Positions 9,640 through 62,204 of a stretch of DNA of 64,000 nucleotides are shown piece by piece. Source of the stretch: Styela clava (taxonomy: Eukaryota; Chordata; Ascidiacea; Stolidobranchia; Styelidae). The translations under genes and the position numbers were made by a program. The stretch is from assembly GCF_964204865.1 (NCBI RefSeq), contig NC_135250.1:5084001-5148000 (forward strand), read 5' to 3'. Positions within the stretch are counted from its first letter, which is position 1. Every line of letters begins with the position of its first letter. Below the pieces are notes generated by a model. The model had not been told where the DNA came from. It did not search any database and was given only the letters and a program-made list of their open reading frames with translations.

Positions 9640-9934
9640 GGTAATGCATATTTTTCAATGCAATGTGCCGAATCAAATATTTTTGGTATATCGTCAGTAT
9701 CTTCGTTACATCTACGTCATCAGTAATCGTCATCGTATTTGTCAGTATTTTCGTCATAATATACGTCAGTATCGTCGTTGCATCTCAGTCATTATGTTTG
9801 TCGTCATCATATTCGTCAGTATCTTCGTCATAATTTCGTCAGTATCGTCGTAACATCTTAGTCATTATGTTTGTTGTCATCATATTCGAGAGTATCATCG
9901 TCATAATTTCGTCAGTATCGTCGTAACATCTTAG
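9640..9934 (-). repeat. Decayed extension of the acidic coding minisatellite
   Basis: CGTCAGTATCTTCGT-like units continue past the stop codon of family copy 3 (9935-9937) for almost 300 bases, with point changes that break the frame. This is the same repeat as inside exon 2. Confidence 0.65.
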
Positions 9935-19304: not shown

Positions 19305-19397
19305 TCAAGGGCAATTGCTTGTTTTCATTCCACACGATGACTCGCGATAATAATCTTCACCAGGATATTCATCACTGCATCTTCTAGGGTTGACGTC
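19305..19397 (-). CDS. Last exon of the mosaic protease
   Basis: Phase-0 exon (AAAG acceptor) coding 30 residues from DVNPRRCSDEYP to MKTSNCP and TGA. It supplies three cysteines that complete the six of the final TSP1 repeat begun in 19667-19824, which is the main reason to splice rather than read through to the TAG at 19655-19657. Confidence 0.6.
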   Translation of the reverse strand, partial: DVNPRRCSDEYPGEDYYRESSCGMKTSNCP

Positions 19398-22300
19398 CTT
19401 TAATAATAGAATTAAAACAAATTTTAAGAAAAAAAAGGCAGGAATGTTTCCAATGAGTATGAAAATATTTTAATACAAGCTTTTATAAGATGTTAATTTA
19501 TGATTTGGAAGGATCTTATCTACAAAGTTTAAGTAACAGATTCAGGCAACTGGGTGTGATTGCTAGTCTGGGAATCAAAACTTTTTAGAACAGTTGAGGT
19601 CTATTGGGCTATCAGTCTACCACGAAGAAAAAATTCATGATTTCAAAGCAAACGCTAATCTTCCACGATGATATTTTCGCCAAAAAATATCTTCACCTCT
19701 GATCCGATCAAACAGTCCCGAGTAGATGCTTTAAATCCGCTGCAAATATTACCAGAGCCTATACGACGACGACAAGGCGACCATGACCCCCATTGACCCC
19801 AGTTATACGGTGTTGAGGATTCTTCTGAAACAAGAGAAGTAATTTGCGACGTGAAAAAAGCTTCGCACATAAAAACCAGAGAGGCTCTTTTTTCTCTTGT
19901 TTATTCCTTGCGGCGTGAAAAAGGCTTTGCACACAAAAACGAGAGAGGCTATTTTTCCACTAATGGAGCAATCAGCAAGATAATAGATTAAGCAAACAGT
20001 TCGAATCATAATGTGTGATAGGATTGCTGGACTCCTCACCGTCGGAAGGTGACATCGCCAGACAAGATGCCGTTGTTCGTCATATGAATACACTGTCTTA
20101 TCAGTTTTCCTCTCCCGGGATAAATATGTAAATCCTAAGAGCACGGTTTCAGGTTGTAGTATTTGTTTAAATAATATTGTATACCAAGCTATACTGTACT
20201 GTAATTGGCTAGCGCGATCTAGTGTGACTTTGTTGTGACGGACTGTCCTTGCTAGAACATTCAATAAAGCTCAAATGTCCATCATCATGTAGCAGCATTT
20301 GGATTTGTAAAAAATAATCTAAAATATACAACTCACCATCTGCCTTTATTGTACATGGTAAATAAGGGCAATTTCCAACTTCTACGCGTTTGCCTCGTTT
20401 GCACTTCCCATAATCAGAAACAACTTGCCCAGAATCGTCATAACATTTCCTTGTCTTTAACCGCATTCCGCCATTACCACAGGTTACTGAACACCATGTA
20501 GACCAAGAACCCCATGAAAAACCTTGAAATAAGAACAGAAAAACTGTAAGAATAACATCTTATACTGTGGCTCTTATTTTTATAGTATTGACCCTCTCTA
20601 CGCGACCACGGCCACAAACCACCCTGATAGCCAACCAGAGACATGGTATGTGAATCGCATGATTAATTAAATACACATCATTGAAATGATATAATATTAT
20701 GTCAGTTATTTAACATAGAAAAATAAATGACAAGTCAGGGCGATCAAGTCAAAAAACGCCTCAAAATTGTGAAGATGGCGGACACCAGAACGTGGTATGT
20801 GTACCAGGTGAGGGTTAGGCCATAATTTCAGATACAAATACTACGGGAGTCACTTGGCTAGTCCCCGAAGTCGTAAGAGAACTAAAATAAGAAAAATTGG
20901 AAAAAAAATTATGACCTAACCCTAATCTGTTACACATAGTATGTTCCGGTATCAGCCATCTTGGTTCACATACTTCGGGAGTACCCATAATCGACTGAAC
21001 AACGATAATCGAAATGATATAATATTAGGTCAGTTTTTTAACATGGAAAAATGAATGACAAGATCATATAAATAAACGTCACACAACTGAGTAAACGTCA
21101 CTTGCGTAAGACACCCATATAGTTTTGGGCGCTCCAGAAGTATGTGTACCAATATGGAGGTAACTAATTTTGTTCGCCTACTTTACATCAAGTTGTATAA
21201 AGGGACTGAAACCTACGAGCAGGGGGTATATTCACTTGGCTAACACAGACAGTCTCCGAACTCGTAATAAAACTAAAATAAGGAAAATCAAAATAAAATT
21301 ATGGCCTAACCATAACCTGGTACACACGCTACTGGACTAACAAGTTTTAGATAGCTTTCCACACACCAAGCATAGATCACTACTTACTTGTTTGCACGGG
21401 GCAAGGCTTCAAAACACAGGTATCTTTTTCGACAGATTTTTCAGGTCCACAAAATAAAACATGCTGAGCAGTGTTTCCATTTTGATCGACACAATTTCTT
21501 GTCTTAGTCAAAACACCAGTTCCACACGTGACGCTACAACTTGTCTTCCATTGACTCCATTTGTAAACTACATGTTGTAAAGTAAAGGTATGTTGCATCA
21601 AACGTTCTTGGCTGGCTCAATTTTAAGCAACACGTTAAAACTGGCTCGGACTTAAAATATTGAATACAAGTCGATTAATAGTTAATTTTTTTAAACGTTT
21701 TTTTTATTCTGAGTGGGTAATCGTATGTACGTACGGTAATCGTACCAACCGTGCCTAATCTATAACGGCTCTCCCTAAAACGACGCGTATTTCAAGATTT
21801 CTTAATAGGTATAGGCATTCATTTTTTTCAATTTAACATTTTACAGCGACTGGATATCATATTTATGCTCCATAATATCGAACTTTTTCCACAAAAATTC
21901 TGCATCAAATTTAAGCTGAGGATACTTGACTGGCTGTTATCAAATTTTGACTAAAAATTATCTCACCTGGACATGGTTTTAGATTGCAAGTGCGAAGTTT
22001 AACATCTTTCCCGGGATTACATTTACTTGAATCAAGAACTTCTACGTTGTCAGAATCAAGACATTTTCTCTTCATTTCGATTTCTCCAGTTCCACATGAG
22101 GCGCTACATTCAGAGACATTAGACCATTCTCCCCAATGGTATTCTAAAAAATAGATGGAAAAGGGGCAATATGAGGAAATTCCAAACATTTCCACAAATA
22201 ATTATTATAATCGATATATTTTAACATTGCTACAGTCATATCAATGATCAATTATTCACTCAAAATTGTCTACAAAAAACTCAAAAAGCTTTACTACGTC

Positions 22301-25300
22301 TTCTTTACATTATAGTGAAGAAGTCTTGAAAAATACTAATTTTTTTATCAAAATTGATTTCTCGGAGTTCGGATCTAGAGTTGGAGTCACGATTTTTACA
22401 ACCCGGAGTCGAGTCGAGTCGAAATTTTATTTATCCGGAGTCTGAGCCAAAATAATTTCACTCCAGAGTTGGAAGTCCAAGTCAATTTTAAATTGTACCC
22501 GGACTCATAGCCCTGTAATATGCGAGGTCTGAAGGTGGAAGATTCAATACAATGCAAAGAATAAGAAGTCAGAATCTCAAGACACAAAAAATTCACTTAC
22601 TCATCGAACAAGGCGGCTCTGTACAGTCGATATATATGACTCTATCTCCAGGACATCTCCTAGTGGCCACATTCTTATTATTATTGTTCAAACAAGATCG
22701 AATTTTTACGCCTCTCGCTGTCCCGCATGTTACAGAACATATTGATGACCAAGTACTCCAATGATAAACTGAAAATAATAGTGAATAATGAGCAAAAATT
22801 GGTAAAATTATTTTGTTTGCCGAATTAACATTCATTTTTATATTACTTATAACTCTCAGTCAGCAGCTATTGAAATTTTCGGCGAATTCATCTCTTGCCA
22901 CTTCGTATTTAAACTACATGTCTAAACTCCGCTAATTAACAATTTAGCTCAGCCGAATCAATATGCATTTCGTCTCGTAGTTTCCAACCCTTGCTCAATA
23001 AATTTTGAATTTGAATAGTAGAAAATATCATTATCACGGATCTGTTCTCTAGGGGCTGCGAGCGATGACCTCCACTATAGTCTTTGAAAGGCGGTCACAG
23101 GTCATAAAAGTTTAAGAACCACTGGACTATGCTATCACACAGAGTATGTTTCTATAGTTCCTTCCCCCTCCAAAACATCCACACAAGAGGTGCTAGAACA
23201 CTATCCTCTGAGCCTCTTGTTTTTCAAGATTGCATTTACTTCTGAACGCCTCTTAGGTTGCTTTGGAATTTACGAATACTACGAAAGTGCCTAGTTTAAA
23301 TAATCGATGCGGTTTTATATTTCAATAATCTTGAAAATTTTTCTTATATGACGAGTTATTTGAGAAACAAAGTAAACGAAATGAAGTACAAAATGAAAGT
23401 GAAATATTATTCAAAATCTAGGACCTAGGTATATCAATAGATTTCTTTTTTCAGACGTCATTACCGGTATTTATTTATTATTTAAATTTATCTGCGTCGG
23501 TCACACGTCGAACCGTAAATAATATTTAGTACTAGTCTAGTCTGACAGTACTCTATTACTTGAATATAAAACAAAATGGAGGTTTGAATATCTTTCCTGT
23601 CAAGTATTTTAACGTCGGCTCAGTAGAAATCGCGACTTCATAAATGAATAAATAACACATAAAGCAGTGATTTCCAACCTTTTTTGCCACATTCCTTCCT
23701 TGAGCTATTTTTATTTTCCTAATTTCCTCTACACATAAAATTTGGTACACCCATAGTGTGTGTAAGGGGTTAGGGTTAGGCCATAATTTTATTCAGATTT
23801 TCCCTTTTTAAGTTCTATTACGAATTACGATTTTAGGACTGTGTTAGGCAAGTGAATATAGACCCTGTCCATAGGTTTCAGTCCCTTTACACAACTTGAT
23901 GTAAAGTAGGCAAACAAAATCAGTTATCTCCATATTGGTACACACACTTCTGGAGCGCCCATTTCGATACATGCAACTTATAATAAATGCGTTACAATAA
24001 TAATGAACAAGTAAAAAAAAATTTGTGATGCGGCACATAAATACCAAGTAAAATTTCCTCCTTTCTGGGGTGAAATTCGTCCCCTGTTAGCAAACGTTAA
24101 CATAAACTAAGAAAGAAAAACTGAGCATGATACTTGTCTTGATATCGTCTCGTTTGAGGACTAATTTACTTTTCTAATATTTAATAGTAATATTTAAAAA
24201 ATAAACGCTAATCACCAAAATTTATAGAAATAAAAGGTGAAATAAATGTTAAAAATAAAAGGCGCCCCTAAAATGTGTTACCAATATGGAGGTAACTTAT
24301 TTTGTTCGCCTACTTTACATCAAGTTGTGTAAAGAGACTGAAACTTATGGGCAGGGGTATATTCACTTGACTAACACAGACCCGAAGTCGTAATAGAACT
24401 AAAATGAAAAAAAAAAATCAGAATAAAATTAAGGCCTAACCTGGTACACGCACAACGCGAGTAACAAATAAAACCTATTTATGAAGCTTACCTGGTTTAC
24501 AGTCTGGTTTGACACATTTATCGGTTTTCCTGGATTTACCAACGCAGTTGTCCGGTTTTGATGGATTGTTTTTATCGTCCACACACTTTCGAGTGCTTGT
24601 TTCGTTTCCTTCACCACATGTTACGCTGCAAGTTGAGACCCAAGGTGTCCAATTATATTCTGTTATTAAGATAAAGAGCAAATTTGGATAAGTAGGATAA
24701 TATAGGATTGCCACAAAATAAAGTTGCAAGACAACAAAACTTCGGACATTACTGAAGTAGAGGTTGCAGATTATTGATGGCTTGCTAACAAATAAAATAT
24801 AGATAAATACCGGTAAAGCTCGAATATATAGACAAGAAAGTATAATGTCATAAAAAATGTTCCCATTAATTAAAATAAATCCTCGAATTGAGGGTAAAAC
24901 ATGGGATCGTGTAAAGCTCGTATGTACCCTGTAATTAATACTTTTTTCATTTACAATTACTGAAAATCGGATTTGTTTGTTTGATTCCAACTTGAGCTAC
25001 AAACTTTGGAAAAATTAAATTTTGATGAAAAAACTTTGAAGTATGCAAGCCGACTTTGATATACTATTAAGAATGATCAGAACACAATTTTTAGTTTGAT
25101 ATTACAGAAACCGGACAATGCAACATATTCTCCAAATACTTTTTTTTTGCAGTTTCATAATTATCATTTCAGTAAGGGCGGAATTAAGTTAGTATATAAG
25201 TGGAAGGGCTGATTACGATAGTTACCAATGCAGTTCGGTTTGACACATTTTCCAATTTTCCTGGATTTACCAACGCAGTTGTGCGGTTTCGATGGATTGC

Positions 25301-28300
25301 TATTGTCGTCTACACATTCCCGAGTGCTCCTTTCAGTTCCTTCACCACATGTTACGCTGCAAGTTGAGACCCAAGGTGTCCAATTATATTCTGTTATTAA
25401 GATAAAAAGCAAATTTGGATAACAGGATAATGTAGGATTGCCACAAAACAGGATTGCAAGACAACAAAACTTCGGACATTACTGAAGGAAAAGATTGATG
25501 ATTGATGACGTGCTAACAAATAAAATATAGATCAATAACGAAAAGTAAATCTCGAATATGTAGACAAAAAAAAGGTAATGTCCTAAAAAATGTTCCCATT
25601 AATTAAAATAAAACCTCGAAATTGTGGGTGAAATATAGGATCGTGTAAAGCTCGTATGTACCCTGTAATTAATACTTTTTTCATTTTCAACTACTGAAAA
25701 TCTGATTTGTTTGTTTCATTCCAACTTCAGCTACAACACGTAAAACTCCGACTCTACGGTCATGACTTCAGTCGATATAAACATTATGTTCGATGCAACA
25801 TATTCTCCAAATATTATTTTTTTTCGCAGTTTCATAATTATCATTTCAGTAAGGGCGGAATTAAGTTGAGTATATAAGGTGTGAAAGCTGATTACAATAG
25901 TTACCAATGCAGTTCGATTTGACACATTTTCCAATTTTCTTGGATTTACCAACGCAATTGTCAAGTTTCGATAGATTGTTTTTGTCGTCCACACATTTCC
26001 GAGTGCTCGTTTCGGTTCCTTCACCGCATGTTACGCTGCAAGTTGAGACCCAAGGTGTCCAATTATATTCTGTTATCAAGATATAAAGCATATTTGAATA
26101 AGATAGGATAATGTAGAATTGATTGAAGTAGCAAGACAACATAAATGAGTAAAAATTGTTAAGTTAAAAAAGTTAATAAAATATAGATAAATACAGATAA
26201 TAACGAAAACTAAAATTCAAATATATAGACAAGAAAGTCCAATGGCATAAAAAATGTTCCCATGAATGTAAAATGTCAAAGCAAAGTCACGATCTGACTG
26301 GAATGATTTACAAAACATTATTTTGCATTTTAAATATTGAATAAATTAATATAACCTTACTTACCAATGCACTTTGGCATTACACATGGTTCATACTTCT
26401 TTTCTTGGCCCGGACAGTTGTTTGGAAACGTCGGTGCCTTGTTTGCATCAGCACAATATCGAGTGCTAGTTGCGACTCCTTCGTTACATGTTACACTACA
26501 AGTTGTTTTCCAAGGTGTCCAATGATATTCTGTAAGCAATGAAATACAGTCACCTAACCTGACATGGGCAAACCAAGGCCCGCGGACCAAATCCACCCCG
26601 CTTGGTAATTCAATCCGGCCCACCTGATGCTGCCACAATTAAACTAAAACCAAATTTTGATGTTTTAGCTAAAAAATAGCACAAGAAATTTTGTGACTAA
26701 ATTCAGTTTTGGCATGAGGATTATTGTTTTCTACTTTTGCATTTGTAACACTGTGAATATTGTTCATAAAATGTAAAATGACCGGCCAATCTAAGTGGGC
26801 AAAATTTTTGACTGCTGTTCATCATTTAAATCATTTAATACATTTGACTGTATATCACGAGCCACTAACATTAATTATATTTCGTTGGGGGGGTTGGCCT
26901 AGTTAGATAAGCAACATCATTTTTATGTAAATATTTTCATAAAATGTTCCAATTTATTTCTTTACTTAGATCAATTTATATTTATGTTTATAAATACTGC
27001 TTTTACCCTTCTACTTGCGCCCAGTGTTACTGGAGAAGGTACCTTTATAAATTATAAAATACTTGAAGTTAAAAATATTTCCCTTGTTTATTAAGCTATC
27101 ACGGACACCAAGTCGGTCAAAGTTTAACGTCATTATATCAAATTGCTATGCCTAATTGGTTTCCAGTCTGTTGGTATATTTAAGTAGCATTCACGTACGG
27201 CGTGTCATACTTATATATAGAAAAGTTGCAACAAATAGGGAAATAATCTTGGAAACTTTCAAAACATTGTGATTTGAATATCAGGTTTCATACCAATACA
27301 AGGTGCGTTTCGACACGGAATATTTCGTGTGGAAATTCCGTCACATTCTGTTGCAGGTTTCTCATCTTTGTCTAGACAAGTTCTTGTCTCTGTTCTTTGT
27401 CCTCTACCACATGTCACACTGCATTTATTTCTTTTCCATTTGGACCAATGATAACGAAATCCTGATAAAATAATTACAGAAAAAATAAACCTTTCAGTAT
27501 TAAACACCATAGACATGCTAAAATTTCGAGCGGTGCACCAAGGAAGTGTATTTTGACCTCCACTGTTTTCAATAGTGTTATAGCTACGATTTAAAACTTG
27601 TACGTGTTTATCAGATCTTATCATAATGACTACATATACTTACAACTCCCAACGCTTTTTTCAACCAGGTGGATATTTTTTTTATCTCAAACTAATACTT
27701 CGATTAATTTCATATTAGTCGACAGTAGACTGTTGCTTCCAATTTCACAAATTTCTTTTGAGTCTTGTGAAGTTTTATGTGATGATGTCATCAAAATTAT
27801 CAAATACCGCACCGTGTGGCGACTGGCGATTAAATTTCAGCAAAGTCCGACATTTTGGTACTCCCGAAGTATGTGAACCAAGATGGCGGACACCGGAACG
27901 TAGTATGTGTAACAAGTTAGGGTTAGGCATCATCCAATTTTTCTTATTTTAGTTTTATTACGAGTTCCCGGACTAGCCAAGTGACTCCCGTAGTTTTTGT
28001 ACCTGAAATTATTGCCTAACCCTAACCTGGTACACATACTACGTTCCGGTGTCCGCCATTTTGGTTCACAATTCACATACTTCGGGAGTACCAACATTTT
28101 AAATAAGGAGCGATTTTTTGTCAGTCGAAAACCACCTTTATAGTTACCTTCTATTGTTCTTCCAATCCATGTGACAAAATCGCTGACTCTTGTGTAAATA
28201 CCCGGTTTATTTTTCTTCCCACACTCAGCTGGACCACTGCTTGTTATTCCATGCACAATGTATTCCCCGTTTTCCTTGCACACAAGTGGTCCGCCGCTGT

Positions 28301-31300
28301 CACCCCCGCATGTATCTTTCTTCCCTTCAAGATGGCTGTGTAAGATGAATCGGTACGTTTATACAGGATGTCCATATAGACCAGCAATGGGCACGGTTTT
28401 TGGACTGGGGGCCACAAATTTTGCCCACCTTAGACTAGTGGGCCATGTACGAATGACGTAAAAAGTTACATTTTACGAAAAATATTTATAGTAGTACAAA
28501 AGCCTAAGTAAAAACCAATGAGCCTCATTACAAAACTAAATTTAATTGCAAAATCAACAAATTCCTTGAGTTATTTCATAGCTTAATAACATCAGAATTT
28601 GGTTGTGGCAGCTTATAGTTTGCCCATGTCTATAAAGGCCCTTTACAATTTCAATTTTGTTACCAAGTCAGGTTTTAAAAAATCCTAACCAGGTTTGTCA
28701 TTTTTTAATCAGTAATTGTTTAAGTATTTTCACTTCAATTAATAAATCTGTGAGGGCGAAAACAATTTATGGTATCGATAAATTCCCTTTGCAATTTCAA
28801 ACAATTTTAGGACTTTGTGGACACCCTATATTTATCAGTGTTACAATACAATTTTATTATAGTATTTCATCTATATCACAGTATGGCATATTGAAGTTAA
28901 TTTAACACTCAATTATAGTACGTTCAATGATTCAATATATTTTGTGATGTAGGTCTTCATTAGTAATTGAGCTGTCTCAACAGTAAGTGCAAGCAGTTAC
29001 CCAGCACAAAAATGACTTTTCGTGTATGAACCATCCACTCCAGGAGTGTGATGCATCTTTCTGCAATCTTCATCTGTGAATATATTCACGTCCACTTCTT
29101 GCAACTTATCTGGTATTGATTCTGTAAGTATAAAATAATCAATTTTCCTTTTTATTAATATATACCGGTAGGTAAAAAGAAAAGGGGTGCAATTCTGGGG
29201 ATGTAATGAACTGGCCGCCGAGAGCTATGACAGAATTGAAAGGGTAACAGCGTTCAAAACGTTCCGACACGAGATCACTTCACAAAAAAAAATTGAAGGA
29301 TTAACCTCGACCTTTTACTGACAGAAAAAAGATGGCGCGATTCGAAATTTTCATCTGGATTGTTTCGAATAATTTACTATTCGATTCGAAATGTCCAGCC
29401 CTACTCGTCGGCTATTACTTGCAACTTCATTAATGACTGAATTCCTAGTGATCTTTTCTATTGAATGATGCTTTCCCACCTAGAGAATATTTACCTTTAC
29501 TCCCTGTTGAGTTCGTTGCACCCCAGCCAGTAACAACACACGACGTTCCTTCCGTAACTGCTACATTGGCCTTGGGAAGTTTTGCTGGTTTGATATATCG
29601 TTTCAGGACCACGGGAGAAGGGAGTTTGACTAAGGATATGTCGTTAACATATATTCTGTTGTCGAAGTCTGAAACAAAAATGTTTTTTATTGAAAGAAAC
29701 ATTGTGGATAAGATATATTTTCTAATCTTTGACGCTGTAGACTGGCTCAAAACTGAATGTTTTTGCAGGCGGACATTTAAAAACACTCGTTGATTGAACT
29801 GTTTTGAGGATCGACAACATTTTTTGCACTTCGGAACAAGTTGAAGTTTTTTTGCCGGCCAGACTTAAAAAATTTGCAAGACCGGGCTGTTTAGGATAGA
29901 TTATCAAAGCCATAACTTTTGAGTTATAAAATATTGAATACCTCCATAATTATTATACTGTTCCATACATAATAATTATAAATTACGTTCTTAAGTTACG
30001 GATCTCAAGTTACGCAATCAAGGTAAATTAAAACGTTCGATAAATATCAGAAAAGGGATAGAAATTATCAACACCACAAATCCACTCTCAAATCTCACTT
30101 TCGTGTGTATGGACAATATCTGCCTCTGAATACTTGACGACTCCTCGTCCGATCCCCGCCCTGCTTGTTGTTCCCAACATGATGCTTTCAATGTTCCATT
30201 CATTTCTGTTAAAAGTATTGTTTAAATAATTCGCTTTCACAGAATAGCCTGGAAGCTACAAAGTCAAATTTACGATCTCACACGTGAGAAGAAACGAAAA
30301 AAAAAGAACTTGTTCCAGAACCAATTCAGGTAATGAGAAACCTGGTCGACGCGATGACCAATCACAGTGGATCCCAACTTTTCATGGCTCGTGGACCCCT
30401 TTCGGAGGATTTAAGCACTCATGGCTCTCCTATGTATCATTCCAGTGGAATTTAGAGTGTTATCATGATTACTAGATTCCAAATCCCATTATGATCAAAC
30501 AATCCATACTCAACTAAATGAAAACACCATGTGAAACAACCTTGTTAAGCAATGAAAGTGGGAAGAACATGGAGTTTTCTTGTAAAGAGAAATGTGAAAT
30601 CAATTCTCACCTAGCATTGTGGCCCCCCGTGCCCCCTTTGAAGGGCCACAAGCCCCCGATTGGGAACCTATGACTAAAGTGTTAGGTTTATCTATGTGGG
30701 TGACTGGGTGTCGTATATTACATACCTCAGGTTCAATTACCATTCCCCCACCTCGACTAGGTGTTAAGTAAAGATTTCACTTCTTCAAAAATATTGTAGC
30801 TTTTTACATAATATCAGTGCCTGACTGCAGGGCGAAACACGTGATTAAGAGTCGTACAAAAAAAACGCCAACCTAAACTTGATTCTCTATACTAAGAGTT
30901 CTTATATTCAGAAAAAACTGATATAGGGCGGATGGTGGTTGCAGTTTGAAACTGTTTATATACCTGAAATGTTATCACGATTCTAAAAATTGTATACTTA
31001 TATATTATTTCATAATGATTTTGTAGTTTAGGTAATTTCAGACACATCGATTTATTTCGTGTGTCAACTCAGTCCAATAGACACTGTTATGCTAAATATA
31101 TTAGAGCGAAGACAAATGATCGAAGTTGGGAACCGTGGCACAAGAAACAAAGTACAATATTTGAATCATACTACAAGCAGGGGCGGACACTTTCCATAAT
31201 TTTGGGAGGGGCGAACTTGGATCGCCTACCGAAAAACACCGTGCCGTGTATTGTCACGTAACAATAACCTGTCGATGTCATTCTCTAATTATTAGAATGT

Positions 31301-34300
31301 CATTTTGCTATTCATATATCGAATACCTGGGCTGCTTTGCTTGGACACGGAACTTGCGCGTCACTGAACCGATTTCTTGAACGTAAGCGCACGGATCTTG
31401 TTAACAAACAGAACGACAAATTTGAGGAGTCATATTGGATTATTTGTATCAATTCCTAGTTCTGCATAAAGCGCACTAACGCCGTTTCGTAAAATTAGAA
31501 ATGCAAAACAAGGTAACAAGCTATTGTGCAAATTTTTTCCCAAATTTTACCAAGGAATTATCATTTGATGATTTGACTAGTAGAATTTCCATTATTGCCG
31601 ATTTATCAAATCATCATTTGAACTCGAAATAACATTCAGGATTCACGCAATGACTTTGCAGGGTTTTTATTCATAATTTAATACGAAAATAAACAGGCAC
31701 GAGTTCAGGCGCGCAGCCAGGATTTACTGAAAAAAAAAGAGGGGGGGGGGGTCAAAGTCGGAAATTCCCATAGCCGTCTGTAACAGTCACCGCGATTACG
31801 CGCTCGTTAAAAGAGTCGCCTTTTTAAGCGTGTAATGATTTTTCTGTCGCGTAAAATATTCAATCCATGTCAGCTACGAGATTCTAAAATGTCCTTATTT
31901 ATTAATTTAATTGTGTGCAACGTAACTCGCGGTTGCGACTTCTTACGACGTCAAAATAAAAATATTCGTGAACAATTTGTGGACATAAGCATATGAAATA
32001 AGCTGATATCGTTATCGCCGTTACAAAAATCTCGATATCTGATATGAAATCCCGTATAGTACAATTTTACTTTATACAATGAAAATAATTATAAAGTATA
32101 CAAGTAAATCAAAAATACAAATTCACCGCCTCGAAATCCCCGCCGAACAGTGCGATTACGCCACTTGTTAAAAGAGCCGACTTTTCAACGAAAAATGATT
32201 TTTCACTTGTTCAAAGTAATCAATCAAAGACCGATACGGGCATATTTAAAATGTCTTGATTTATTAATTTAATTGTCTCCAATTTAAATTGCGGTTGCGT
32301 CGACAAAACAAGAGCCACTCTAAAATACTACGGCAATCCGCGGACATAAAAATGTGTGGTAAACTGCCCGTTTATATATTGTTTTAATCCGTATTTTTGC
32401 TATTTTGCGAATTCGATAAATTTGAGATGTACTTGTAACACTGACTCCGCTCAATCGCAATGTTGCCACTCGAATTATTTTCAAAAATAAAACCTTTCGA
32501 AAAATATGTATATTTTCTGTCAATTCTCACGGAATAAAATTTATTTCAGTACAATAAAAATTAATCGAATATACTTTAATTATCTTATATATCATCACAA
32601 ACCGGGAAAAAGTCGCGTACTCAACCTTGTTTAAAGTCAACACGAAAATTTTCGACGTCAATTTAAAAGTAATGGATAAAAAGGCAAATCCCGCCCACAA
32701 TTAACCGTGTTTCGATTTTAGTAATAAAATGTATTTGAAGGCCAACCAACTATAATGTGTGCCGTAGGAACACGAAACTTTGTGCGATTTTCGATGCCTA
32801 GAAAAGCGTTTTTAGACTGTCGCGTGCCTCAACAAAACGTATATTATTTACGGTTTTATTTTTAGTATTTTATATTGCCGCTTTTCAATCAAAAAATATA
32901 GATCTCGGATTTTACTCCTTCATTTTTCCTTAGAATCTCACCGCCGATGAACTTCTAAGAATTCTTGCCGGGTTAATAATTCCGTGCTAGTACAAAAAAA
33001 ATAATCAGCATAGTCATCGTGTCACAAATTTGTGGAAAATTTGTGATTTAATGAGAATAAACGCCAACGTAACAGGTCACAATGATGAAAACAATCGGCG
33101 ATTTTAGCAAAAGGCAATTGAACGCGTTATTGGCGACTTTTTCAGTTTTTAAAAAAATTCGAAAGTGGGGTGTAATTTTTTCAGATAGTTTCTGTGGTCT
33201 GAAAAGTCGAATAAGCGTTTTGACATAGTAATTGCTTTGATATTTGCCCGCAAATTAAGCTGGGCCTTGCACGAAATCCATAACGTGAAAAGATACGTCC
33301 ATTGGTGAAAGATTTATGTTTTAGCGATAATGATTAATTGTTGTAATGAAATACAGTTTGCCTCTTTCACTTCTCTCGCAAGTGCCAATAATAACACTAT
33401 TGAAAAATTTTGACAATGAGAAAACCATATCAAATTGTAATTAGTTGTGCAAAACCGTGGCGCGTGATCGGCCGTGCGTTTGAAGACGTAGTATTACCCG
33501 TGCGGGTGCGCATGTTTCACGAAAATGTAAGGTGCTCCGAAGGCGCTCTGGTCTACATTATTGTAAGAAAACAGTTATAATATCGGTAACTATTAACCGT
33601 TTAATCGCCCCCCCCCCCCCCCCCCCCCCCCCCCAAGTGTCAAAACATAAATCCCACAAATTCAATTAAAACTTGTGTGATATATCGGAACCCGAAAGTT
33701 TTTGAAAAACTTTCAAAAAAAGTAATGGCCTTCTGGCAAATTTTACCATTATCAAGTGCTGAAAGGTGAGACCAATTTGTCCAATTGCTGCAGAAGTATA
33801 CATTCCGTGAAGTATTTTGGGTCGAAATAAATGTTTTCATTATTCAGCAAAAAGATTGGTACTCCCGTAGTGTGTGTACCAGGTTAGGGTTAAGCCATAA
33901 TTTTATTCAGATTTTCATTATTTTAGTTCTATTACTAGTTCGGGGACTGTCTGTGTTAGCCAAGTAAATATATATACCTCCTGCCCATAGGTTTCAGTCC
34001 CTTTACACAACTTGATGTAAAGGAGGCGAACAAATTTAGCTACTTTCATATTGATACACACACTTCTGGAATGCAAAAAGTTCCCACTTCGTTTTGAATA
34101 AAACTCACCCAAAGGGATCCAAAAAGCAATGTGCTGCCGAGAGTATCCAAGAGCTTGATATTAAAGTCCCACCACATTGTTGCCACTGACCATCAAGGTT
34201 AGTGATGATAAGAACTTGCCAAGGCCATTTCGCTGGTTCTGACGCAAACCCACCGACAACACAATGGCGATCATTACAGGATTTTACTTCAACTGCATCG

Positions 34301-37300
34301 TTGCCACATTCTTTATTTTCAAGTGGCTGTCTATCCTTTGAGCTTGAACATTGTCTAACTCTCATCTGCATGCCCGAACCACATACTGTAGAACACAAAT
34401 TCCATGGACTCCAAGGTTGCCATGTGGAACCTGTGAGTATGAGATTCTGAATGATAATTTTCAGAACAATAGAGTAATTAATGCTCAACATATATGCCAC
34501 ACATCAATAACGGGACAGTCTGAGAGCAACGAGTTTGCCGAAAAGATTTACGGAAAATAGCAATAGAGCATAAAATCCATACAGGACTTCAATAAACTGG
34601 TGTAAGTGCTGAAGTGAGAAACTCATTTATACTAAGGCTACAAAAGTTCATTGTCCAACCTTGCTCATCATTTCCAATCTCCTTGCATGGTTTTCCACAT
34701 TCTCGTTGTTCTCTTTCTGGTTCTTGGCATTTATTATTGAGACAAAGTCGTATTCTCATTTGTTGTCCTCTTCCACAGGATACCGTACAGGCTGACCAGT
34801 CGCTCCATGGCAACCAAGGTTTTTTCGTTACTGTAAGATAAAAAAGAAATGCTCATATATATAAATGAAAATGAAAGTCCTAGGAGTAGCGGTATGCTGG
34901 TATGACTAATCACAGTCACAGAGTAACAAGGGCCTACGACTAAAATCAGTTATCAGTCATTCAAAACCACTAAATCGAAATTGCAAAGCCCAAGGCTGCG
35001 CGGTACCGTAGCAGTGGAAACTGGCGAGGACAGGAAATGATTTTCATCGTGTCCGGAAAGTTCACCGCATATGAAAATTCGCGGCATGAAAAATCGCCGC
35101 AAGGGCATTTTGCTTTAAAACAACTATTTGTGATAAAAACAGTTAGGTTTTTAGGGTTAGGGTTGTGATGTCACTCGTTTGTAATATTTATATTATAGGG
35201 CCTTATATATTATAAAAGAACGAGCTTTGAGAACTTGCTTTTAGGGCAGCACGGTCCGCTGAATGCACCAGCTTTAAATATCGAATTTTTCTCAAATAAA
35301 AAGGTACTTCAAAAACCCAACTGTTTTTATCACAAATACTTGTTTTACAGCAAAATGCTCTTGAAGCGATTTTCACGTGGCGACCCTCACTATGCAATGA
35401 AATTTCCTGCGGCGAGATTTCTTACGCAAATTTTCCTAGAACCGATTTTAACATTAATTCGGGTAGAGGAAACCCTATAAAACGGCTTACCCATATGTTA
35501 GACGTTAGGCGTAGGCTACCAATAAACTACCAAGGCCTTTCGTCAGGTTAATACCGGTAGTCTATACGGCTCGGCGGTGTGGCGCATCGTGCTAAGCGCT
35601 AGGAATACGCTGGCCACCGCATCTCTGATTACCGTTCGTGGATTCGCAGATTCGAATCCCATGCAGGGATGATCATGTGCGAGATGATTGCTGGACTCCT
35701 CGCCGCCGTAGGGGAGTTCACTTAACTTCTTGTCGGTTACGGCTTCCTCTACCAGGATAGGATAGGATAGGATTCACATATTTATCCCGGGGGAGAGGAA
35801 AGCCGATATGACGGCTTATCCATATGGCGAACCACGGCCTCTCGTCCGGTTACCATTCCAAGTCGGGTATGGGATTAGCTATTTTGTTTGTTTTCGGAAG
35901 CATGGACTTGGTGGTGGAGGAAGCCGTAACCGACCAGCGGTTACGTGAACCACCCAACGACGGCGAGGAGTCCAGCAATCCTCTCGCACATAACCATCCC
36001 TGCCTGGGATTCGAACCTGCGAACCCACGCAGAGTAATTAGAGGTGCGGTGGCGAGCGTATTCCTAACGCTTAGCCCGTTGAGCCACACCGCCGCGCCAC
36101 CAAGCTTCTTGCTTCCGAAAACAAATAACTGGCTGACTAATCCCATACCCGACCTGGACTGGTAACCAGACGAGAGGCCGTGGTTCGCCATATGATTAAG
36201 CCGTCTTATCGGCTTTCCTCGCCCCCGTGATAAAAAAGTAAATCCTACCCCATCCTATCCTATATCGGGTATGAGATTAGTTACTCAGCTACTGGCGAAC
36301 TAGTATTACGTGTGTGTCACGTGTTCGTAACATTCATAGAGATTTGACATGGATTGATCCGTTAGTTGCGGAGGAAACACTAAAAGAACGTTTTTAGAGC
36401 TCTGAGAACTTGCTTTTAAGGCACCAGGGTCCTCTGAATGCAGTAGGCCAACTGCACCTCGTTTTTTTTTTTCTAGAGTGGCAGCAGCGATGTGAAAGTC
36501 ACATTACGAATGTCAAATTAGCGCTGTAGAAATACGGTCAGTGTGTATCAAATTCAGGTTGGCGAACTAGAGTTAGTGAGGCAAATTACGGTTCTCCCAT
36601 TTCAGAATTTTCAATTATATTTAATCAGGCGGATTTTATGTTGTATTTTGTCAAATTGTGCATGTGAGAGAGAAAGAGGGAACTGGGGTTAATTGGGAAT
36701 CTTACTTGTTCGCTGGCCCTTGTCCTTTTCTTGTGGACAGGGTTTTCCGCACTCCTGTTCTTGTCGCTCTGGTTGCTGACACGTGTTACCGGTGCAAATT
36801 CGGACTCTCATTTGTTTTCCTTTGCCACACGAAACGGAACAAACCGACCAATCGCTCCACGGTCTCCAATTGACTTTTACGGCTATGAAAATATTTCAGG
36901 ACTGGAAATTAATTAAAACTAGAAATTAAGTCGGACACGTGGGACACGACATATTGGAGACACCCTCAATTAATCAGATGTTGAGTGAATTTAATAACTT
37001 ACCTCAAAAAATTGCCCTTTCAATGAAAGAGCCGAGCTTCTTGCTGTCTTACTATGGGAGTACCCAATTTAACGCTAAAATAACCGCGGTAAAACGTAAC
37101 TATCTTTTGACACCAAATTTATCTAATTTCGTCATATATATTCTCCGTTGGAGCGTGTAAATGGATTTCGACATACCAATGCCCTTATCAGTATAGGCCA
37201 GTGGTTTTTCACCCGGGTTTCGCCCGTACAGTCCAGAGGTTCCTTAAGTTTCCATTCATAAGCGAGAGGCCGTGGTTCGCCATATGATTAAGCCGTCTTA

Positions 37301-40167
37301 TCGACTTTCCTCGCCCCCGTGATAAATATGTAAATCCTACCCCATCCTATCCTATATCGGGTATGGGATTAGTTACTCAGCTACTGGTGAACTACTATGA
37401 CGTGTGTGTCACGTGTTCGTAACATTCATAGAGATTTGACATGGATTGATCCGTTAGTTGCGGAGGAAACACTAAAAGAACGTTTTTCGAACTCTGAGAA
37501 CTTGCTTTTAAGGCACCAAGGTTCTCTCAATGCAGTACTGTACCTCGTTATGCTCTTTTTTTCTAGAGTGGTGGCAGCATTAAAGTCACATTACGAATGT
37601 CAAATTAGAGCTGTAGAAATACGGTCAGTGTGTATCAAATTCAGGTTGGCGAACTAGAGTTAGTGAGTCAAATTACGGTTCTCCCGTTTCAGAATTTTTA
37701 ATTATATTTAATCAGGCGGAATTTATGTTGTATTTCGTCAAATTGTGCATGTGAAAGAGAAAGAGATAACTGGGGTTAATTGGGAATCTTACTTGTTCGC
37801 TGGCCCTTGTCCTTTTCTTGTGGACAGGGTTTTCCGCACTCCTGTTCTTGTCGCTCTGGTTGCTGACACGTGTTATCGGTGCAAATTCGGACTCTCATTT
37901 GTTTTCCTTTGCCACACGAAACGGAACAAACTGACCAATCGCTCCACGGCCCCCAATTGACTTTTACGGCTATGAAAATATTTCAGGACTAGAAATTATT
38001 TAAAATTAGAAATTAAGTCGGACACGTGTGACACGACATTTTGGAGACACCCTCGATTAATCAGATGTTGAGTGAATTTGATAATTTACCTCAGATAATT
38101 GCCCTTTCAATGAAAGAGCCGAGCTTCTTGCTGTCTTACTATGGGAGTACCCAATTTCACGCTAAAATAACCGCGGTAAAACTCAACTATCTTTTGACAC
38201 CAAATTTATCTAATTTCGTCATATATATTCTCCGTAGGAGCGTGTAAATGGATTTCGACATACCAATGCCCTTATCAGTATAGGCCCGTAGTTTTTAACC
38301 GGGGTTTCGCCCGTACAGTCCAGAGGTTCCTTAAGTTTCCATTCATAAGCGAGAGGCCGTGGTTCGCCATATGATTGAGCCGTCTTATCGGCTTTCCTCG
38401 CCCCCGTGATAAATATGTAAATCCTATCCCATCCTATCCTATATCGGGTATGGGATTAGTTTCTCAGCTACTGGCGAACTACTATGACGTGTGTGTCACG
38501 TGTTCGTAACATTCATAGAGATTTGACATGGATTGATCCGTTAGTTGCGGAGGAAACACTAAAAGAACGTATTTCGAGCTCTGAGAACTTGCTTTTAAGG
38601 CACTTAGGGTCCTCTGAATGCAGTACTGTACCTCGTTTTGCTCTTTTTTTTCTAGAGTGATGGCAGCATAAAAGTCACATTACGAATGTCAAATTAGCGC
38701 TGTAGAAATACGGTCAGTGTGTATCAAATTCAGGTTGGCGAACTAGAGTTAGCGAGTCAAATTACGGTTCTCCCGTTTCAGAATTTTTAATTATATTCAA
38801 TCAGGCGGAATTTATGTTGTATTTTGTCAAATTGTGCATGTGAGAGAGAAAGAGATAACTGGGGTTAATTGGGAATCTTACTTGTTCGCTGGGCCTTGTC
38901 CTTTTCTTGTGGACAGGGTTTTCCGCACTCCTGTTCTTTTCGCTCTGGTTGCTGACACGTGTTATCGGTGCAAATTCGGATTCTCATTTGTTTTCCTTTG
39001 CCACACGAAACGGAACAAACTGACCAATCGCTCCACGGTTCCCAATTGACTTTTACGACTATGAAATAATTTCAGGACTAGAAATTAATTAAGACTAGAA
39101 TATAAGTCGGACACGTGGGACACGACATTTTGGCGACACCCTTTGTCAATCAGGCCTGGTCAGGCCTTCTCAATGAAAGAGCCGAGCTTCTTGCTGTCTT
39201 GGCAGCGGTGATATTTTATGTAGGCTATGCGTGTTTGCAGTTATCTGCATATTCAGTACTCCTTCGGTTTTGTGTATGACCGATTAGTCGATCGCGGGCT
39301 ATTTTGAAAATTTTAGTCTATCGCAGTCGAAAGCCACCCCTGGATATTACCAATGACTTACCTTGTTGTATGTCACTTTTTCCATCATCGCATGGTTTTC
39401 CACATTCTCTCAGCTGCCGTTCAGGCACTTCACAACTATTGTCAAGACAGATGCGAACTCTCATTTGTTCACCTTTGCCACATGATACAGAGCACGCCGA
39501 CCAATCACTCCATGGTGACCAAACTCCTAAGAGAATAAATTTTCGATACAATTTAGGGCGCTCCAGAAGTATGTTTACCAATATGGAGGTGACTAATTTT
39601 GTTTCGCCTACTTTACATCAAGTTGTGTAAACTGTAAAGGGACTGAATGTATCGACTCAGTAACAACAAGTTCCCTCAATTTATAAAATGTATACATATA
39701 TATATATGTAACTACGTAAGCTGCATTTACGTGACACGCTTAACGTAAATCTAATACATAACTTCCAAAACTCCGAATATAAAGCTGGTCGTCAGCTACA
39801 CTGCACGCTACTCATTTTCTGCACTTGTATAAAGTCTAAGTCAATAACAGGTTCGCTAATGATCACCCCATTCTAAGAAGGGGTTCGCGCGAACCCCCTA
39901 CATCCCACCACTGCACGTATTTCAAAATGATTGTACAAAATATGTTTAACATATCAGAAAAGTATGGGTCAAAGATGGTGTTTTATATTTGCGTATTTGT
40001 TATTATTTTGCATATTGAGCTACAGTACTTCTTTCACGTCTCAATGATTTCCTCCAATCTACATAATTTATTGTTTTAAAACGAAACTCACCTGTTGTTT
40101 GCAATATTAGAGTTGAGAATGTGAACAAAAGGATTTCACTGCAAGTTAAAATGGATTGAATCCGCAT
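19305..40167 (-). CDS. Secreted mosaic serine protease: signal peptide, 6 TSP1, trypsin domain, 10 TSP1
   Basis: Assembled by hand from 22 exons. Order on the minus strand: 40092-40167 (signal peptide); TSP1 at 39362-39526, 38882-39058, 37793-37969, 36706-36882, 34660-34830; TSP1 plus protease start 34109-34430; protease 30099-30205, 29495-29668, 29001-29121, 28148-28335; TSP1 at 27294-27461, 26365-26529, 25905-26069, 25226-25390, 24492-24659, 22601-22768, 21967-22143, 21388-21567, 20337-20522, and a last repeat split over 19667-19824 and 19305-19397 (TGA). Every junction has GT..AG and phases match throughout. The product should be extracellular, with no membrane segment seen. TSP1 repeats suggest binding to matrix or glycosaminoglycans; the protease should cut after Lys/Arg. 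Substrate unknown. The gene resembles no TSP1 or protease architecture I can name. Confidence 0.8.
19667..19824 (-). CDS. First half of the final, divergent TSP1 repeat
   Basis: Starts EESSTPYNWGQWGSWSPC and contains SGNICSGFKASTRDC. It lacks the CSxTCG O-fucosylation motif of the other repeats. The proposed donor is GTGGAA (weak) at phase 0. Reading through would stop at TAG (19655-19657), giving a three-cysteine half repeat. Confidence 0.55.
19825..20120. repeat. Intron with a tandem duplication and SINE tail
   Basis: A unit of about 65 bases (CGTGAAAAAAGCTTCGCACA-like, GAGAGGCT) is repeated at 19845 and 19910. From 20020 the sequence GGATTGCTGGACTCCTC and then CTCCCGGGATAAATATG match the body and tail of the SINEs at 35.6-36.3 kb. 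Confidence 0.5.
20337..20522 (-). CDS. TSP1 exon of the mosaic protease
   Basis: Phase 1-1, 186 bp. SWGSWSTWCSVTCGNGG at the start, then RLKTRKC, GKCKRG, GNC and YLPC: six cysteines, tandem Trp for C-mannosylation and CSVTCG for O-fucosylation. Longest spacing of the C-terminal set. Confidence 0.75.
20768..20985. mobile_element. MITE-B copy
   Basis: Contains AAGATGGCGGACACCAGAAC on the left and GCCATCTTGGTTCACATACT on the right, in inverted relation, and ends CTTCGGGAGTACC. The left terminus is truncated. Intronic. Confidence 0.7.
21128..21338 (+). mobile_element. MITE-A copy
   Basis: GGCGCTCCAGAAGTATGTG start, AGGGACTGAAACCTACGAGC middle, GGTACACACGCTAC near the end. Lies in the intron between TSP1 exons 20337 and 21388. 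Confidence 0.75.
21388..21567 (-). CDS. TSP1 exon of the mosaic protease
   Basis: Phase 1-1, 180 bp. VYKWSQWKTSCSVTCGTG, then RNC, LFC, DTC, KPC. Donor GTAAGT. Confidence 0.75.
21967..22143 (-). CDS. TSP1 exon of the mosaic protease
   Basis: Phase 1-1, 177 bp. YHWGEWSNVSECSASCGTG, then KRKC, SKC, RTC, KPCPG. Donor GTGAGA. O-fucosylation motif CSASCG present. Confidence 0.75.
22340..22520 (-). repeat. GGAGTCGGAGTC-type interspersed repeat
   Basis: A run of GGAGT/ACTCC motifs with GAGTCGAGTCGAGTCGAAAT. Related stretches are at 15890-15960, 49315-49640, 52010-52280, 60070-60120 and 62730-62830. Intronic. Confidence 0.5.
22601..22768 (-). CDS. TSP1 exon of the mosaic protease
   Basis: Phase 1-1, 168 bp. 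VYHWSTWSSICSVTCGTARG, then RSC, RRC, IDC, PPC. Donor GTAAGT after ATGA. Basic patch around VKIRSC. Confidence 0.75.
23744..23959 (-). mobile_element. MITE-A copy (reverse)
   Basis: GGTACACCCATAGTGTGTG to CACTTCTGGAGCGCC, with the TTAGGGTTAGGCCATAAT landmark. Intronic. Confidence 0.75.
24261..24464 (+). mobile_element. MITE-A copy
   Basis: GGCGCCCCTAAAATGTGTTA start; GAGACTGAAACTTATGGGCA middle; AACCTGGTACACGCACAAC end. Lies just upstream in + coordinates of TSP1 exon 24492. Confidence 0.7.
24492..24659 (-). CDS. TSP1 exon, recent triplet member 3
   Basis: Phase 1-1, 168 bp. EYNWTPWVSTCSVTCGEG, then RKC, DNC, DKC and PDCKPG. Nearly identical in sequence and flanking intron to 25226 and 25905. 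Confidence 0.8.
25226..25390 (-). CDS. TSP1 exon, recent triplet member 2
   Basis: Phase 1-1, 165 bp. EYNWTPWVSTCSVTCGEG, then REC, HNC, GKC, PNC. Donor GTAACT. Confidence 0.8.
25905..26069 (-). CDS. TSP1 exon, recent triplet member 1
   Basis: Phase 1-1, 165 bp. EYNWTPWVSTCSVTCGEG, then RKC, DNC, GKC, SNC. Donor GTAACT, shared with 25226. Confidence 0.8.
26365..26529 (-). CDS. TSP1 exon of the mosaic protease
   Basis: Phase 1-1, 165 bp. EYHWTPWKTTCSVTCNEG, then RYC, NNC, EPC, PKC. The usual CG after CSVT is CN, a small change next to the O-fucose site. Confidence 0.8.
26555..26640. mobile_element. hAT-like terminal fragment
   Basis: GGGCAAACCAAGGCCCGCGG and GGCCCACCTGATGCTG match the end of the element at 56910-56985 and look like hAT-derived repeats. 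Confidence 0.4.
27294..27461 (-). CDS. First TSP1 exon after the protease domain
   Basis: Phase 1-1, 168 bp. GFRYHWSKWKRNKCSVTCGR, then RTC, TEC, IPC, APC. Joins in phase to the end of the protease (IGRTIEG). Confidence 0.8.
27857..28092. mobile_element. Complete MITE-B copy
   Basis: GGTACTCCCGAAGTATGTG at the left, its reverse complement at the right, and AAGATGGCGGACACCGG inside each arm. The flanks ACATTTT and AACATTTT suggest a 7-8 bp target duplication. Intronic, beside the catalytic-Ser exon. Confidence 0.8.
28148..28335 (-). CDS. Protease exon with catalytic serine
   Basis: Enters at phase 2, leaves at phase 1. GHLEGKKDTCGGDSGGPLVC carries Ser195 and, six residues before it, Asp189, which predicts cleavage after Lys or Arg. 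SSGPAEC and KPGIYTRV give Gly216 and Gly226, so the S1 pocket is open. Ends DFVTWIGRTIEG, the normal C-terminal helix. Confidence 0.88.
28375..28640. mobile_element. hAT-like short element
   Basis: AGCAATGGGCACGG at the left and TTGCCCATGTCT at the right, with GGGGGCCACAAATTTTGCCC inside. Intronic. Confidence 0.4.
29001..29121 (-). CDS. Protease exon (Cys168-Cys182 loop)
   Basis: Phase 1 to 2. IPDKLQEVDVNIFTDEDC to YTKSHFCAG: the strand before and loop of the Cys168-Cys182 disulfide of S1 proteases. Confidence 0.85.
29495..29668 (-). CDS. Protease exon with catalytic aspartate
   Basis: Phase 1 to 1. IYVNDISLVKLPSPVVL holds Asp102 in the usual NDISLVKL setting; TSCVVTGWG holds Cys136. Donor GTAAAT. 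Confidence 0.88.
30099..30205 (-). CDS. Protease exon between His and Asp
   Basis: Phase 2 to 1, 107 bp. The frame is NEWNIESIMLGTTSRAG, then VVKYSEADIVHTHEN, which fits the LG....V..I..H pattern of S1 domains. Acceptor AACAG, donor GTGAGA. The longest open frame here is a different one; phase and homology choose this reading. Confidence 0.78.
30361..30672. mobile_element. hAT-like non-autonomous element
   Basis: AGTGGATCCCAACTTTTC at the left and GATTGGGAACCTATGAC at the right form imperfect inverted ends around about 310 bases; inside lies GGCCCCCCGTGCCCCC. Intronic. Confidence 0.5.
31170..33640. mobile_element. Probable decayed repeat block in the large protease intron
   Basis: GGGGCGGACACTTTCCATAA (31180) and GCGCGCAGCCAGGATTT (31702) look like transposon ends. 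A segment of about 150 bases (CGATTACGC..GTTAAAAGAG) is repeated at 31790 and 32150. Poly-G lies near 31741 and poly-C at 33606-33634. Parts resemble 42.6-43.3 kb. No coding frame; boundaries uncertain. Confidence 0.35.
33606..33634. repeat. Poly-C homopolymer
   Basis: About 29 consecutive C. Length may be an assembly estimate. Confidence 0.85.
33858..34073 (-). mobile_element. MITE-A copy (reverse)
   Basis: GGTACTCCCGTAGTGTGTG to ACACACACTTCTGGA; right terminus degenerate. Thirty-six bases from the donor of the His exon. Confidence 0.75.
34109..34430 (-). CDS. Sixth TSP1 fused to start of protease, with catalytic histidine
   Basis: Phase 1 to 2, 322 bp. The TSP1 repeat (GSTWQPWSPWNLCSTVCGSG, RQC, KEC, KSC, RHC) runs without a linker into VVGGFASEPAKWPWQV, the protease N-terminus, then QQCGGTLISSSWILSAAHC with His57. 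The residue before VVGG is the sixth TSP1 cysteine, not Arg or Lys. The repeat also has CSTVCG, which lacks the Ser/Thr required for O-fucosylation. Donor GTGAGT. Confidence 0.88.
34660..34830 (-). CDS. Fifth TSP1 exon of the mosaic protease
   Basis: Phase 1-1, 171 bp. VTKKPWLPWSDWSACTVSCG, then RLC, NKC, REC, KPC. Donor GTTGGA is weak but keeps phase. Confidence 0.78.
35573..36265 (+). mobile_element. tRNA-derived SINE, split by a second SINE
   Basis: The head (GTGTGGCGCATCGTGCTAAG, GATTCGAATCCC as B box, body GATTGCTGGACTCCTC) runs to about 35750 and its tail resumes near 36106 (CTTCCGAAAACAAAT to TAAATCCTACC). Between them is a reverse SINE. Confidence 0.7.
35751..36105 (-). mobile_element. 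Complete tRNA-derived SINE (reverse), inserted in another SINE
   Basis: On the minus strand: tRNA-like head with A-box-like GTGTGGCTCAACGGGC and B box GGTTCGAATCC, a conserved body (GGATTGCTGGACTCCTC), a tail CTCCCCCGGGATAAATATG and a (TCCTA)n end at 35752-35772. About 355 bp. RNA polymerase III type promoter by sequence. Confidence 0.75.
36706..36882 (-). CDS. Fourth TSP1 exon (tandem unit 1)
   Basis: Phase 1-1. VNWRPWSDWSVCSVSCGKGK, RIC, NTC, QEC, KPC. Six cysteines; O-fucosylation motif CSVSCG. Confidence 0.82.
37793..37969 (-). CDS. Third TSP1 exon (tandem unit 2)
   Basis: Phase 1-1. VNWGPWSDWSVCSVSCGKGK, RIC, NTC, QEC, KPC. Differs from unit 1 by a few bases. Confidence 0.82.
38882..39058 (-). 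CDS. Second TSP1 exon (tandem unit 3)
   Basis: Phase 1-1. VNWEPWSDWSVCSVSCGKGK, RIC, NTC, QEC, KPC. Confidence 0.82.
39362..39526 (-). CDS. First TSP1 exon of the mosaic protease
   Basis: Phase 1-1, 165 bp. GVWSPWSDWSACSVSCGKGE, RICLDNSC, REC, KPC. Very close to the exons of the second locus at 50449 and 54989, more so than to its own neighbours. Confidence 0.85.
39557..39650 (+). mobile_element. Truncated MITE-A
   Basis: GGCGCTCCAGAAGTATGT to TGTAAAGGGACTGAA, then homology stops. Lies in intron 1. Confidence 0.65.
40092..40167 (-). CDS. Signal-peptide exon of the mosaic protease
   Basis: ATG at 40165-40167, then MRIQSILTCSEILLFTFS and TLILQTTG: short basic start and a hydrophobic core, ending at phase 1 with GTGAGT. 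Its twin is at 58138-58213. The start is supported by conservation in both copies. Confidence 0.85.
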
Positions 40168-54222: not shown

Positions 54223-54253
<31 letters not shown>

Positions 54254-62184: not shown

Positions 62185-62204
62185 GTAAATGAATAATATA
62201 AGGA

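Follow-up and report, generated by a model that had tools for sequence, protein, structure and literature searches.

A Styela clava gene that appears to set a trypsin-like protease between two TSP1 arrays, and paralogues without the usual tryptic activation residue

In the 64,000-nucleotide stretch of Styela clava DNA analysed here (the window; bases 5084001-5148000 of contig C1, 376.6 Mb assembly), a signal peptide, six TSP1 modules, a complete S1 protease and ten further TSP1 modules appear, judged by gene structure, to constitute one gene. This gene belongs to a family with at least five members in the genome, of which five were examined: the window gene and paralogues A, B, D and E. What is new is that none of these members carries the usual Arg or Lys immediately ahead of the first residue of the mature protease. 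From these features we lean towards reading the product as a secreted, matrix-tethered, Arg/Lys-preferring S1A peptidase with 16 TSP1 modules, which would work mainly as a single chain and without the usual tryptic switch-on. The paralogue family, the missing tryptic site, recent amplification of part of the N-terminal array and a set of upstream exons at 49.8-58.2 kb were all absent from the first-pass annotation of this DNA.

Gene structure

The gene was rebuilt from raw sequence on the minus strand (40167-19305) as 22 exons, with the start codon at 40167 and the stop at 19305. All 21 introns are GT-AG with consistent phases, and the spliced frame comprises 1205 codons plus a stop codon, its sole stop lying at the end. 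The 22 phase-compatible exons reported in the first-pass annotation, and their outer limits, were thereby re-derived exactly.

Exon 1 (40092-40167) contains the start codon and a putative signal peptide (MRIQSILTCSEILLFTFSTLILQTT) and ends in phase 1. TSP1 modules 1-5 follow on exons 2-6 (39362-39526, 38882-39058, 37793-37969, 36706-36882 and 34660-34830, respectively). Exon 7 (34109-34430; phase 1 in, phase 2 out) encodes TSP1 no. 6 together with the start of the S1 protease (VVGG..AAHC, including His57). The protease continues through exon 8 (30099-30205; the segment between His57 and Asp102), exon 9 (29495-29668; Asp102), exon 10 (29001-29121) and exon 11 (28148-28335), which contributes Asp189, the GDSGGP motif with Asp194 and Ser195, and Ser215, and has a phase-1 donor. 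Modules 7-15 are carried by exons 12-20 (27294-27461, 26365-26529, 25905-26069, 25226-25390, 24492-24659, 22601-22768, 21967-22143, 21388-21567 and 20337-20522), and module 16 is split between exon 21 (19697-19824; phase 1 in, phase 0 out) and exon 22 (19305-19397), which supplies its remainder and the stop codon. The donor of exon 6 is weak (GTTGGA), and omitting this 171-nt phase 1-1 exon, with TSP1 no. 5, keeps the frame.

Fourteen of the 16 modules each occupy a separate exon with phase-1 boundaries on either side; such exons could be joined by accident, in which case two or more separate genes would have been wrongly chained. This is very improbable. Exon 7 is uninterrupted, so that TSP1 no. 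6 reads directly into the protease within a single exon (..CNDRHC-VVGGFASEPAKWPWQV..AAHC). Exon 11 completes the S1 domain (..WIGRTIEG) and stays open up to its donor, and by eye a donor occupies the same position in paralogues A and B. In both paralogues the whole layout recurs, from the signal-peptide exon through to the terminal exon: exon 12 (TSP1 no. 7) has a counterpart in the same place, 89% (A) and 78% (B) identical, and terminal exon 22 has one that is 87% (A) and 77% (B) identical, with the stop at the same position. At the other end, the signal-peptide exon is matched upstream of A at 60% over 25 residues (E 0.019, with a DNA E of about 1e-8) and upstream of B at 52% over 25 residues (E 1.9, weak by itself as protein), the DNA match in B covering 29-36 bases (E 1e-5 to 9e-5). 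Because of the shared exon 7, the absence of a stop before the exon 11 donor and the layout repeated in A and B, the separate-genes reading was rejected, and the single-gene claim made earlier for this locus was borne out.

Domain organization and catalytic residues

By eye, the protein contains 16 TSP1 modules, six before the protease and ten after it; the Pfam TSP_1 match has an E of 4e-98, with 13 stretches passing individually. Pfam Trypsin (E 8.7e-56) covers residues 372-613 and its entire profile (1-220 of 220). Seven Pfam families match at E <= 0.001, namely TSP_1, Trypsin, four further TSP1 models and DUF1986, the last of which overlaps the protease domain and does not reach its cut-off. 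No metalloprotease family, ShK domain or astacin match was found in the protein by Pfam at E up to 0.001. By eye, on an alignment with plasma kallikrein, the protease has His57, Asp102, Ser195, Asp189, Gly216 and Gly226, and its eight cysteines fit the four S1 disulfides, also by eye. The triad and the full-length Trypsin match place the domain among the S1A peptidases, with Asp189, Gly216 and Gly226 providing a trypsin-like S1 pocket. Both the complete trypsin-like domain and the order signal peptide, six TSP1, protease, ten TSP1, as originally proposed, are upheld.

A frame scan of 194 kb around the window, with an HMM of these TSP1 repeats and the protease as queries, yielded 49 scoring reading frames for TSP1 and 19 for trypsin; the chance control gave none for either query, whether in the reversed sequence or in one block-shuffled copy. 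WxxW, the C-mannosylation motif, is present in all 16 TSP1 modules, and the O-fucosylation motif C-x-x-S/T-C-x-x-G in 13 of the 16.

Hydrophobicity in 19-residue windows peaks at 1.21 after residue 40, compared with 1.57 in the signal peptide. As nothing downstream of the signal peptide matches it in hydrophobicity, a membrane anchor was rejected, which leaves the 'surface-anchored' option of the first-pass annotation without support. From the putative signal peptide and the lack of any other stretch as hydrophobic, we infer that the protein is secreted.

A paralogue family with a TSP1 tail

Paralogue A lies about 47.7 to 36.4 kb left of the window (plus strand), B about 14.0 to 26.9 kb left of it (minus strand), D about 49.6 to 67.7 kb right of the window end (plus strand), and E at C1:15.68 Mb. 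In all five members the protease is followed by TSP1 exons; scans gave 10 modules after the protease in the window gene, 6 in A (one broken-looking), 8 in B, 12 in D and at least 8 in E. In four of the five (window gene, B, D and E), a single exon holds both a TSP1-type segment and the beginning of the protease. The corresponding exon of A keeps only a very short TSP1-type start (FQWGTW) and is preceded by one TSP1 exon. No TSP1 exons were found upstream of the shared exon in B and D, and a long N-terminal TSP1 array is confined, among the members, to the window gene, the upstream scope for E being 1.6 kb.

The reading frame of A is broken in the last protease exon, so not every family copy is intact; this could reflect either decay of A or an assembly error at this point. 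No signal-peptide exon was detected in the 5.6 kb before D, whose terminal exon and two protease exons were not matched by window-gene exons.

The repeat units of exons 3-5, introns included, show 93.0-95.5% DNA identity over 768-1089 aligned bases, with 95.5% between the units of exons 3 and 4 (1089 bases). Judged from this identity, the N-terminal TSP1 array is partly a recent local amplification. Since these units are near-identical and only the window gene has a long N-terminal array, the two-sided arrangement looks recent, like an elaboration of a family rule in which TSP1 is joined to S1 and a TSP1 tail follows.

Selection was assessed by Nei-Gojobori dN/dS on strict one-to-one exons (12 for A and 10 for B, with non-1:1 repeats excluded). 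Against A, the protease gave a dN/dS of 0.16 (223 codons; dS 1.01, dN 0.16), and the TSP1 and terminal exons 0.29 (337 codons). Against B, the values were 0.27 for the protease (241 codons; dS 0.64, dN 0.17) and 0.29 for the TSP1 and terminal exons (239 codons). Substitutions are thus mostly silent (dN/dS 0.16-0.29), indicating that the protein sequence has been kept in both the protease and the TSP1 parts. Silent sites between D and the window gene are too divergent for a ratio.

The activation site

The activating cut of trypsin-like cascades follows Arg/Lys15. In the window gene, the sixth cysteine of TSP1 no. 6 directly precedes Val16 with no linker. The residue before position 16 is Cys in the window gene, Trp in A, Leu in B, Gly in D and Ala in E, and in none of the five is it Arg or Lys; the usual Arg/Lys15, which membership of S1A does not require, is therefore missing throughout. 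Other S1 genes of the genome with a readable site have Arg in four of five cases (L001, L022, L023 and L024) and His in one (L002), a small comparison of five genes against five from which L003-L008, having no readable activation site, were excluded. Three of the four Arg-site genes adjoin TSP1 exons. L024 (C9:15911001-15921000) has six TSP1 exons followed by a trypsin domain, and L022 and L023 (C3:11380001-11390000 and 11400001-11410000) show trypsin before TSP1, each of these being a 10-kb stretch and not a chained gene model. In L002 (C2:27000784-27001569), the S1 domain lies in one open frame, with His before the mature start.

His57, Asp102, Asp189, Asp194, Ser195 and Val/Ile16 are kept in all five members, in an alignment that is incomplete for D and E, where some protease exons stand as X or gaps. 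Cys122, which holds the propeptide in two-chain enzymes, is absent from all five. Position 215, a Trp in most trypsin-like enzymes, is Ser in the window gene, A and B and Phe in D and E, and this replacement may mean lower or changed activity. Another residue takes the place of His40 in the family; by eye, His40 is also lacking from several other S1 genes in this genome, and for that reason nothing is concluded from its loss here.

Proposed readings: a single-chain, matrix-tethered enzyme or a locked zymogen

Matrix binding is a general property of TSP1, and the modules, with their C-mannosylation and O-fucosylation motifs, would tether the protein to the extracellular matrix; anchoring of this kind is plausible. 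Asp189, Gly216 and Gly226 predict a preference of the catalytic domain for Arg/Lys. As residue 15 is never Arg or Lys in the members examined, the usual tryptic cut after this position would not switch the enzyme on. Residue 15 of the window gene is the last TSP1 cysteine, which places the zymogen bond next to a disulfide-bonded domain. The enzyme would then be mainly single-chain, and its activity would depend on conformation, a binding partner or a non-tryptic activator. S1 zymogens are normally cut, and the freed Ile/Val16 pairs with Asp194, according to an excerpt of PMC13194640. Precedent for activity of single-chain forms nevertheless comes from factor XII, which still activates prekallikrein when blocked at its cleavage site (excerpt of PMC5773063), and from tPA, whose single-chain form uses Lys156 (cited in the same excerpt of PMC13194640). 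Residue 156 of the window protein, numbered by eye, is not Lys, so the route of single-chain tPA is not evident here. A more specific version, which we advance only tentatively, is that the zymogen bond has been relocated onto or beside TSP1, in the window gene straight onto the last cysteine, with loss of tryptic activation but not of the triad, Asp194 or Val/Ile16, and that these single-chain, matrix-tethered proteases are switched by conformation or ligand through the flanking TSP1 modules, with no upstream protease.

The strongest alternative, unlikely on balance yet a serious one, is a pseudoprotease or permanently locked zymogen, in which the triad is kept and the domain serves as a folded spacer or binding module of a TSP1 adhesion protein. 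The loss of the tryptic activation site and the replacement of Trp215, each in all five members, fit such a protein. Human PRSS23 is an example: its triad is kept, its Ile16-Asp194 switch is gone and it has no detectable protease activity, as given in the excerpt of PMC13194640. The present family departs from a PRSS23-kind pseudoprotease, which in that text has lost Asp194 and Ile/Val16, by retaining both Asp194 and Val/Ile16 in five of five members. The triad, Asp189 and the GDSGGP motif are likewise kept, and the protease exons are under purifying selection. On these grounds an enzyme seems more likely than a locked zymogen, though not by much.

An ordinary cascade protease, cut before Val/Ile16 by a non-tryptic (elastase- or chymotrypsin-like) enzyme, is rather less probable. 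Such an activator could accept the Trp, Leu, Gly and Ala found at P1 in four members, and the hydrophobic residue 16 and Asp194 on which the switch depends are kept. However, no two members have the same P1 residue, so a single activator would not serve them all, and P1 of the window gene is a cysteine expected to be disulfide-bonded within TSP1 no. 6. The five paralogues, with five different non-tryptic residues at the zymogen bond, offer a natural series on the function or retention of S1 domains without the standard cut.

Relation to known TSP1-bearing enzymes

The first-pass annotation could name no described protein with this domain order. None with a TSP1 array, S1 and a second TSP1 array was present among the matches listed from the open-licence literature, from which subscription papers and database annotation may differ; that part of the claim holds. 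TSP1 and trypsin in one chain are nevertheless known from cnidarians, as in the window gene, and the two also lie together in the 10-kb stretches of this genome described above, so that the first-pass annotation gave too little weight to precedent. Ap_Trypsin-like has two ShK domains, four TSR and a C-terminal trypsin (PMC5446238, excerpt), and trypsin-TSP_1-ShK proteins of four cnidarians appear in a figure legend of PMC6767649. The arrangement of Ap_Trypsin-like, as that excerpt gives it, differs in that trypsin follows four TSR with two ShK in front, whereas the window gene has no ShK and ten TSP1 modules after the protease. Trypsin-like and TSP1 domains also stand together in the figure key to a panel on ctenophore SRCR proteins (PMC11797021) and in different legends for Oikopleura house proteins (PMC3390340).

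Within ascidians, protease and TSP1 are also combined in the Tast proteins, astacin-like metalloproteases of the Ciona sperm surface, four of whose five genes are contiguous (PMC9265791, PMC11673157). As the excerpts describe them, these are type II membrane proteins with astacin, two or three TSP1 and no signal peptide; the window gene has S1, a signal peptide and 16 TSP1. Tuphoxin, a tunicate tyrosinase with TSP1 for which its authors propose tunic matrix binding (PMC9395347, excerpt), likewise joins an enzyme to TSP1, but the enzyme is a copper phenol oxidase with one TSP1. If expressed and active, the product of the window gene would add an S1 enzyme to these TSP1-bearing tunicate enzymes (astacin Tast, tyrosinase Tuphoxin). 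A tunicate host agrees with, though it is not proved by, one glycoside hydrolase family 6 (GH6) match above the Pfam cut-off (E 1.5e-6), in a locus whose frames by eye look membrane-spanning, GH6 being a hallmark of tunicates; a search of the assembly for COX1 gave no match.

ADAMTS enzymes are matrix proteases with TSP1 modules and a zinc metalloprotease domain, a domain that Pfam does not find in the window gene. Among solved structures, TSP1 nos. 1-5 best match thrombospondin-1 (E 2.5e-24) and properdin (E 4.2e-23), neither of which is known to have a protease domain; properdin-like proteins consist of TSP1 only, whereas the window gene includes a complete trypsin domain. The best solved-structure matches of the protease domain are plasma kallikrein (E 7.5e-48) and plasminogen (E 6.7e-45), which carry other accessory domains and are activated after Arg.

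Upstream exons and neighbouring features

Upstream of the gene, on the minus strand, the window contains a second signal-peptide exon (58138-58213), 92% identical to exon 1 over 25 residues, and six further TSP1 exons (49832-56384; starts at 56384, 55153, 52651, 51598, 50613 and 49990). Each of the six is an open, phase 1-1 exon flanked by AG and GTAAG splice sites. Cysteines 3 and 4 are lost together in four of them, all with the same altered segment, which probably reflects one event; in thrombospondin-type TSP1 these two cysteines pair together, so their joint loss may be tolerated.

A small-protein frame also occurs in two copies on the minus strand (48536-49153 and 61741-62208); each shows two hydrophobic segments on visual inspection and ends in a PPPY tail at the C terminus (..SPPPYAI / ..SPPPYAV). 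Neither has a Pfam match above cut-off, and the 48536-49153 copy has an extra inserted segment, palindromic by eye. The position of these membrane-protein frames, at 61.7-62.2 and 48.5-49.2 kb, suggests tandem duplication of a block containing both such a frame and a signal-peptide exon, and the upstream signal-peptide exon is probably part of this 5' duplication. The upstream block may be an independent gene or a remnant, or it may supply the protease gene with alternative 5' exons. Joining of its TSP1 exons to the 48536-49153 frame is unlikely, as the two acceptors with fair tracts need a phase-2 donor and the exons end in phase 1.

A longer transcript, in which the signal-peptide exon at 58213 and the six TSP1 exons splice into exon 2 to give up to 12 N-terminal TSP1 modules, is improbable. 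The open, phase 1-1 exons and their AG/GTAAG sites would permit it, since joining to exon 2 keeps the frame, and the two signal-peptide exons are near-duplicates. Yet each block has a signal-peptide exon of its own, and the small membrane-protein frame at 48.5-49.2 kb lies between the blocks, an arrangement that fits a tandem duplicate better than one gene.

Between the upstream TSP1 exons, a plus-strand frame at 53645-54016 encodes a GIY-YIG endonuclease domain (E 2.7e-06) and looks like part of a mobile element. A dispersed repeat of at least about 45 bases (for example at 39556-39600, 21117-21171 and 23916-23960) has at least about 30 matches, on both strands, in the 194 kb around the window. 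At 6868-7859, a 328-base tandem unit is present in three copies, 97% matching, and at 9691-10567 a long 12/24/48-base tandem repeat includes a minus-strand frame encoding an acidic DEDTDEYDD run.
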